A DNA stretch of 64,000 bases, from assembly GCF_910596095.1 (NCBI RefSeq), contig NC_056543.1:19793542-19857541 (forward strand). The letters are read 5' to 3'. The notes under the pieces are model-generated. The model had not been told where the DNA came from and did not search any database. It was given only the letters and a program-made list of their open reading frames with translations. Positions 1,147 to 29,606 of the stretch are shown piece after piece. Every line of letters starts with the position of its first letter. Position 1 is the stretch's first letter. Position numbers and translations under genes: made by a program. This DNA is from Thunnus maccoyii (taxonomy: Eukaryota; Chordata; Actinopteri; Scombriformes; Scombridae).

Positions 1147-29606
<28,460 letters not shown>

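Follow-up and report, generated by a model that had tools for sequence, protein, structure and literature searches.

The last intron of frmpd4 (27031..28389 of the window, by which we mean the whole 64,000-nucleotide stretch of DNA analysed here) ends in two AG dinucleotides five bases apart. This raises the question of whether the spliceosome uses one or both of them, and which protein end each would give. All features of the gene described here lie on the forward strand. The initial annotation had named the gene frmpd4, and this is borne out by the exon at 25836-27028, which matches PDB segments of FRMPD4 (4wnd_B, E 9.7e-10; 4wng_B, E 1.2e-9; 4wne_B, E 4.4e-4). No other PDB sequence matched at E up to 10, and the three represent the LGN-binding segment of the protein. 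In our model this penultimate exon spans 25839..27030, as supported by its open frame, by alignment with a paralogue on contig C24 and by the PDB matches, and ends in KIK-ETT plus one base (phase 1). Its candidate acceptor, TACACAG/GTGTAG (a slash marks a splice position), was read from the sequence at 25838/25839. Downstream of frmpd4, on the same strand, are two long frames that encode leucine-rich repeats and TIR domains (31458-34715 and 36416-39562), which are probably toll-like receptor genes.

The donor context of the exon ending at 27030 is AAAGAAACCACAG/GTAAAAC, and the 3′ end of the intron reads CCTACTACCCCTAG/TGTAG/CTTGC. We refer to the acceptor at 28383..28384 (ending at 28384) as AG1 and to that at 28388..28389 (ending at 28389) as AG2. 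Joined to the exon in silico, AG1 shifts the frame and gives KETTV followed at once by a stop. AG2 gives ETT-A-CTQ..., an open frame of 405 residues beyond ETT that ends in LKTLLNK, its stop codon ending at 29606; this extension with its stop occupies 28390..29606 and includes the A codon completed by the G at 27030. The stop codon of the short form, the TAG at 28387..28389, contains AG2. The codon arithmetic of the initial annotation therefore holds, as does its observation that the short form stops on the second acceptor itself, and the joins support its idea that acceptor choice would set which end, ETTV or long, the protein has. The intron is 1354 nt long to AG1 and 1359 nt (3 x 453) to AG2; if retained, it brings a stop 16 further codons on, which rules it out as an exitron. 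Class I PDZ ligands follow the consensus S/T-x-hydrophobic-COOH, and ETTV-stop fits this as a C-terminal sequence, which makes it a putative ligand. With no later junction downstream of either stop, the two forms would be expected to escape junction-dependent decay, and a possible poly(A) signal common to both forms, AATAAA, is found at 29737..29742.

The arrangement is that of a tandem acceptor, with two AGs within a few bases of each other 3′ of a pyrimidine tract. From the AG density of the window, approximately 39% of acceptors would be expected to have a second AG ending within +3 to +9, and so such a neighbour is not rare. The open frame is a different matter. The chance of 405 stop-free codons is 1.6e-10 at the stop density of the window and 3.6e-9 at 3/64, and the frame and its homology to three paralogous loci are, unlike the second AG, beyond what chance gives.

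That homology came from a search of the animal's own genome (782 Mb, 54 contigs) with the 405 residues. Besides its own locus, the tail was found at three others: C24 (E 5.3e-64, with 45% identity over residues 61-405, in a frame of 1151 codons), C8 (30% identity, E 2.4e-20, 949 codons) and C2 (28% identity, E 7.9e-5, 1225 codons). Over 188 codons of the tail core, pN between frmpd4 and C24 is 0.30, with pS at 0.81 and thus saturated. With C8 as the outgroup, 21 changes are unique to the frmpd4 tail and 17 to the C24 tail (p 0.63). A tail that was no longer translated should have run ahead in such changes. By these measures the frmpd4 tail evolves no detectably faster than the C24 copy and has stayed under selection; given the lack of excess change and the low pN, it must be translated from some transcript. 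Readthrough of the retained intron cannot supply it, owing to the stop after 16 codons. The long form thus keeps the ancestral end and adds nothing new. The initial annotation had seen in it a new C-terminal module, and this view has to be given up: the 405 residues are a conserved old C-terminus common to three paralogous loci. From these comparisons the tail is the family's old C-terminus and ETTV the likelier innovation.

Conservation is low in the first 50 residues of the tail, where 10 of 39 aligned positions are identical, and highest in the part encoded by 29022..29603, which is modelled at low confidence as a six-helix bundle (single-sequence model of the tail; mean pLDDT 65, pTM 0.59). 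Of the 1025 PDB matches that Foldseek found for this model with an E limit of 10, none had E at or below 0.001; the top of the VIA-align list consisted mostly of designed helical bundles, and no fold is assigned to the tail. The tail had no match among PDB sequences, and no relatives were found in scans of genome contigs and viral contigs. Assignment to talin IBS2B (Talin_IBS2B, Pfam PF21896) was rejected, as the scores of 18.7 and 20.2 bits fall below the gathering score of 27; this match was absent from all three paralogous tails.

The C24 gene matches not only the tail and the exon before it (25806-27032, E 2e-41) but also the other of the two preceding frmpd4 exons (E 3e-50), which makes it the nearest paralogue. 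We provisionally term it frmpd3-like. Its coding exon lies on the reverse strand of the locus G000:C24:12854500-12864400. The main new result, as read from the two sequences, is that the C24 gene reads straight through the region of the frmpd4 intron, yet has the same donor and 26 of the 31 acceptor-region bases within its coding sequence. Its last exon is unbroken to the end over 1151 codons. KHKETTG in C24 aligns with KIKETTG at the frmpd4 donor and the DNA there is CCACAG/GTACTG, of which CCACAG/GT is the same as in frmpd4, whilst the acceptor context is GCTGCCCCCAG/TGTAAG. In silico, joining the C24 donor and acceptor removes 748 nt and yields KHKETTV-stop, via TAA where frmpd4 has TAG. 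This GT...AG segment is internal to one open coding exon, as in exitrons, and on these features the C24 gene holds a potential 748-nt exitron.

The C24 splice signals are of mixed quality. By eye, C24 has a CTAAT 30 nt upstream of the end of its AG, the same spacing as for CTTAAC in frmpd4; our scripted branch-motif search kept only the farthest motif, at 42 nt for C24. Counting the AGs with a branch motif and at least 75% pyrimidines in five coding exons gives 2 of 289 for C24, 0 of 305 for C8, 3 of 324 for C2 and, within frmpd4, 1 of 130 for the penultimate exon and 0 of 118 for the tail exon. The C24 site accounts for one of the two C24 cases, by criteria chosen after the site had been seen. 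With a rough weight matrix, the C24 donor is weak (score 0.11, 22nd among the exon's 157 GTs) and the acceptor ranks 7 of 292. Moreover, the codons AGT GTA are common by descent, and the KETTV-stop of C24 could therefore be inherited without ever having been used. At identical residues, frmpd4 and C24 use the same codon at 5 of 8 acceptor positions, or 8 of 12 with the donor included, over a background of 42%; this excess is not significant (p 0.21 and p 0.08, respectively). Third positions agree at 9 of 12 vs 33% elsewhere (p 0.0035), a result to which we give little weight since both tracts are pyrimidine-rich and this alone raises agreement. Extra constraint on silent sites at the splice signals of the two genes is, on such counts, not convincing.

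The alignment of the C24 and frmpd4 tails begins at 28353, inside the frmpd4 intron, the C24 side being NDSLCFSAAPSVSC and the frmpd4 side being read through the pyrimidine tract and both AGs. The 3′ end of the intron (28353..28388) can thereby be aligned in codon register with the C24 coding sequence NDSLCFSAAPSV. Over these 12 codons, wholly or almost wholly intronic in frmpd4, 8 of 12 residues are identical to C24 (score 43), and the next best among 1140 placings of the tract on the C24 protein scores 24. Only the intron-end tract comes within 8 of the score of 43 among the 66,831 stop-free 12-codon stretches in the window, and shuffling the tract, with 129,304 stop-free versions, gave a best score of 32. 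The 26 matching bases are not unique at the DNA level, as 44 of 1395 windows of 31 nt in the codon-aligned exons reach this number; those of them whose peptides were listed come from two blocks. No homology was found between the rest of the intron and the middle segment of C24 (238 residues; score 29, matched by 160 of 200 shuffles). Much of the intron is filled by two inverted-repeat structures (27147-27666 and 27778-28095), which resemble small DNA transposons. Sequence from the first half of the intron recurs at many other places in the genome (at least 65 matches, its own locus included, with 40 of 919 candidates scored) and, judged by these matches, part of the intron interior is a dispersed repeat. 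On this alignment, coding sequence is the probable origin of the frmpd4 intron, and AG2 keeps the old frame.

The converse, that the intron is ancestral and that the frmpd3-like gene turned it into coding sequence, none having been carved in frmpd4, is the alternative that survives best, though we regard it as unlikely. It would explain why only the splice-signal end of the intron interior can be aligned, as expected for an end that had always been an acceptor, and it is in keeping with the good acceptor features of the C24 region. However, that region is continuous and stop-free for 238 codons, and the intron-end match with its eight shared residues is in coding register. C8 and C2, too, have unbroken last exons, though without alignment here.

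Which acceptor is used was approached through scores from the same rough weight matrix, which are 2.8 bits for AG1, 0.9 bits for AG2 and 3.2 for the frmpd4 donor, so that the two acceptors differ little. Two further AGs reach similar values, 2.3 for that ending at 28324 and 1.9, above AG2, for that ending at 28587, which is in frame with the tail. The scores therefore do not single out the pair, and a different acceptor or donor might serve the long form. AG2 has no clean pyrimidine run adjacent to it. The acceptor-like sequence at 28311-28324, ACATTTTATTACAG, lies upstream of the pair, scores between AG1 and AG2 and would give a third C-terminus. A candidate branch-point motif, CTTAAC, is located at 28350..28355 and its A, at 28354, is 30 nt from the end of AG1 and 35 nt from the end of AG2, with the AG at 28587 approximately 200 nt downstream, behind many AGs. 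So far as this motif can be trusted, position speaks for the AG1/AG2 pair over the other AGs. Folding of the RNA around the acceptors gave no sign of selection on structure (z 1.57, with 190 of 200 shuffles folding at least as well). According to Chern et al. (PMC1449888), close-scoring NAGNAG sites are both used and a gap of five or more leads to exclusive use. By analogy, we would expect a mixture of forms with more of the short form.

We therefore favour, at a probability of roughly 0.62, two competing acceptors that are both used, AG1 for the PDZ-ligand form and AG2 for the long form, at an intron carved from a once continuous exon. The last exon would originally have been uninterrupted, with ETT/GT and AG already present as codons, as the paralogue suggests. 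Once the intron was no longer readable, the in-frame AG2 would have become the way to keep the old tail. Today AG1 would shift the frame and stop at once to produce the KETTV class I PDZ ligand, and AG2 would keep the ancestral frame and produce the conserved 405-residue tail. The spliceosome would use both, AG1 presumably more often, and one gene would have two protein ends.

It is improbable that only the long form is made, with AG2 working, AG1 a silent decoy and the frmpd4 of this fish without an ETTV end. The long frame is the only one with independent signs of selection, and an upstream AG in a poor position can be passed over for one further downstream. Yet AG1 outscores AG2, comes first among the AGs past the 30-nt mark after the candidate branch point and has a homologue in the frmpd3-like gene that encodes the same KETTV-stop; in addition, the papers cited below on mammalian Preso report a C-terminal PDZ-binding motif. 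Hardly probable either is use of AG1 for the short form only, with the tail reached by the acceptor at 28587 or another AG, by another donor or from an internal promoter: AG1 is the stronger of the pair and the AG at 28587 has its score of 1.9 in frame with the tail, but this AG lies far downstream, past many others, and its use would cost the tail its first residues, and AG2 is the nearest in-frame AG.

A functional switch in frmpd4 is likely from the sequence. If both acceptors of the pair are used, its five-base choice would set docking of this postsynaptic scaffold onto PSD-95-type proteins against a conserved helical tail and leave the rest of the protein unchanged. More tentatively, and as a possibility rather than an expectation, the switch may predate the split of frmpd3 and frmpd4. 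The ancestral last exon would have held an exitron whose removal gave KETTV and whose retention gave the tail; frmpd3 would still splice or retain its 748 nt, and frmpd4 would have fixed a repeat-bearing intron and preserved the choice through an in-frame second acceptor whose AG is the short-form stop. If the paralogue also splices its hidden site, exitron and intron would be two states of one old switch, and under this ancestral reading one regulatory decision would have outlasted a switch in splicing mechanism. Such a pair, if true, bears on how introns arise from coding exons, and the gene models of FRMPD3 and FRMPD4 may each miss one protein end. The C24 comparison makes frmpd4 a testable case, in which an intron and a possible exitron encode the same choice.

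In mammals, the C-terminal PDZ-binding motif of Preso (FRMPD4) acts through PSD-95, and a mutant without this motif loses its effect on PSD-95 complexes, according to PMC10965980 and PMC6591282. The initial annotation had taken mammalian FRMPD4 to end in ETTV and to bind PSD-95 through it; the motif and its action via PSD-95 stand, and in the literature searched no paper combined FRMPD4 with ETTV. A zebrafish Frmpd4-Whirlin-a interaction, with PDZ-binding motifs suggested, is cited in PMC13060437, and this fits, but does not show, an ETTV form in fish. In the literature searched, with subscription papers mostly outside it, we found neither a long FRMPD4 form nor this acceptor pair, nor an exitron in connection with FRMPD3, FRMPD4 or a PDZ-binding motif.

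Lastly, we compared the locus with known systems. Exitrons have weaker splice sites, lie in long exons and often derive from ancestral coding sequence, as described in PMC4484396, and the GT...AG signals of C24 inside a long stop-free coding exon resemble them. Splicing of the C24 segment is, however, a prediction, and the frmpd4 intron has stops and is no exitron now. Like other short-distance tandem acceptors (NAGNAG and wider), the frmpd4 pair consists of neighbouring AGs of similar score, for which stochastic binding is expected. However, most cases discussed in PMC1449888 concern one in-frame residue, whereas in frmpd4 the frame shifts and the choice is between 1 residue and 405. According to PMC9064290, the acceptors of SynGAP exon 19 (Syngap1) lie 13 bp apart, lead into two frames and decide the C-terminus, and the alpha1 form carries the class I PDZ ligand QTRV. 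There too, close frameshifting acceptors affect a PDZ ligand, as we propose for frmpd4, although acceptor use was shown by experiment in SynGAP and is inferred in frmpd4. Unlike in SynGAP as described there, the spacing in frmpd4 is 5 nt and the early acceptor makes a ligand rather than removing one; moreover, the stop codon of the short form is the second acceptor, and a paralogue carries these signals within an uninterrupted exon.
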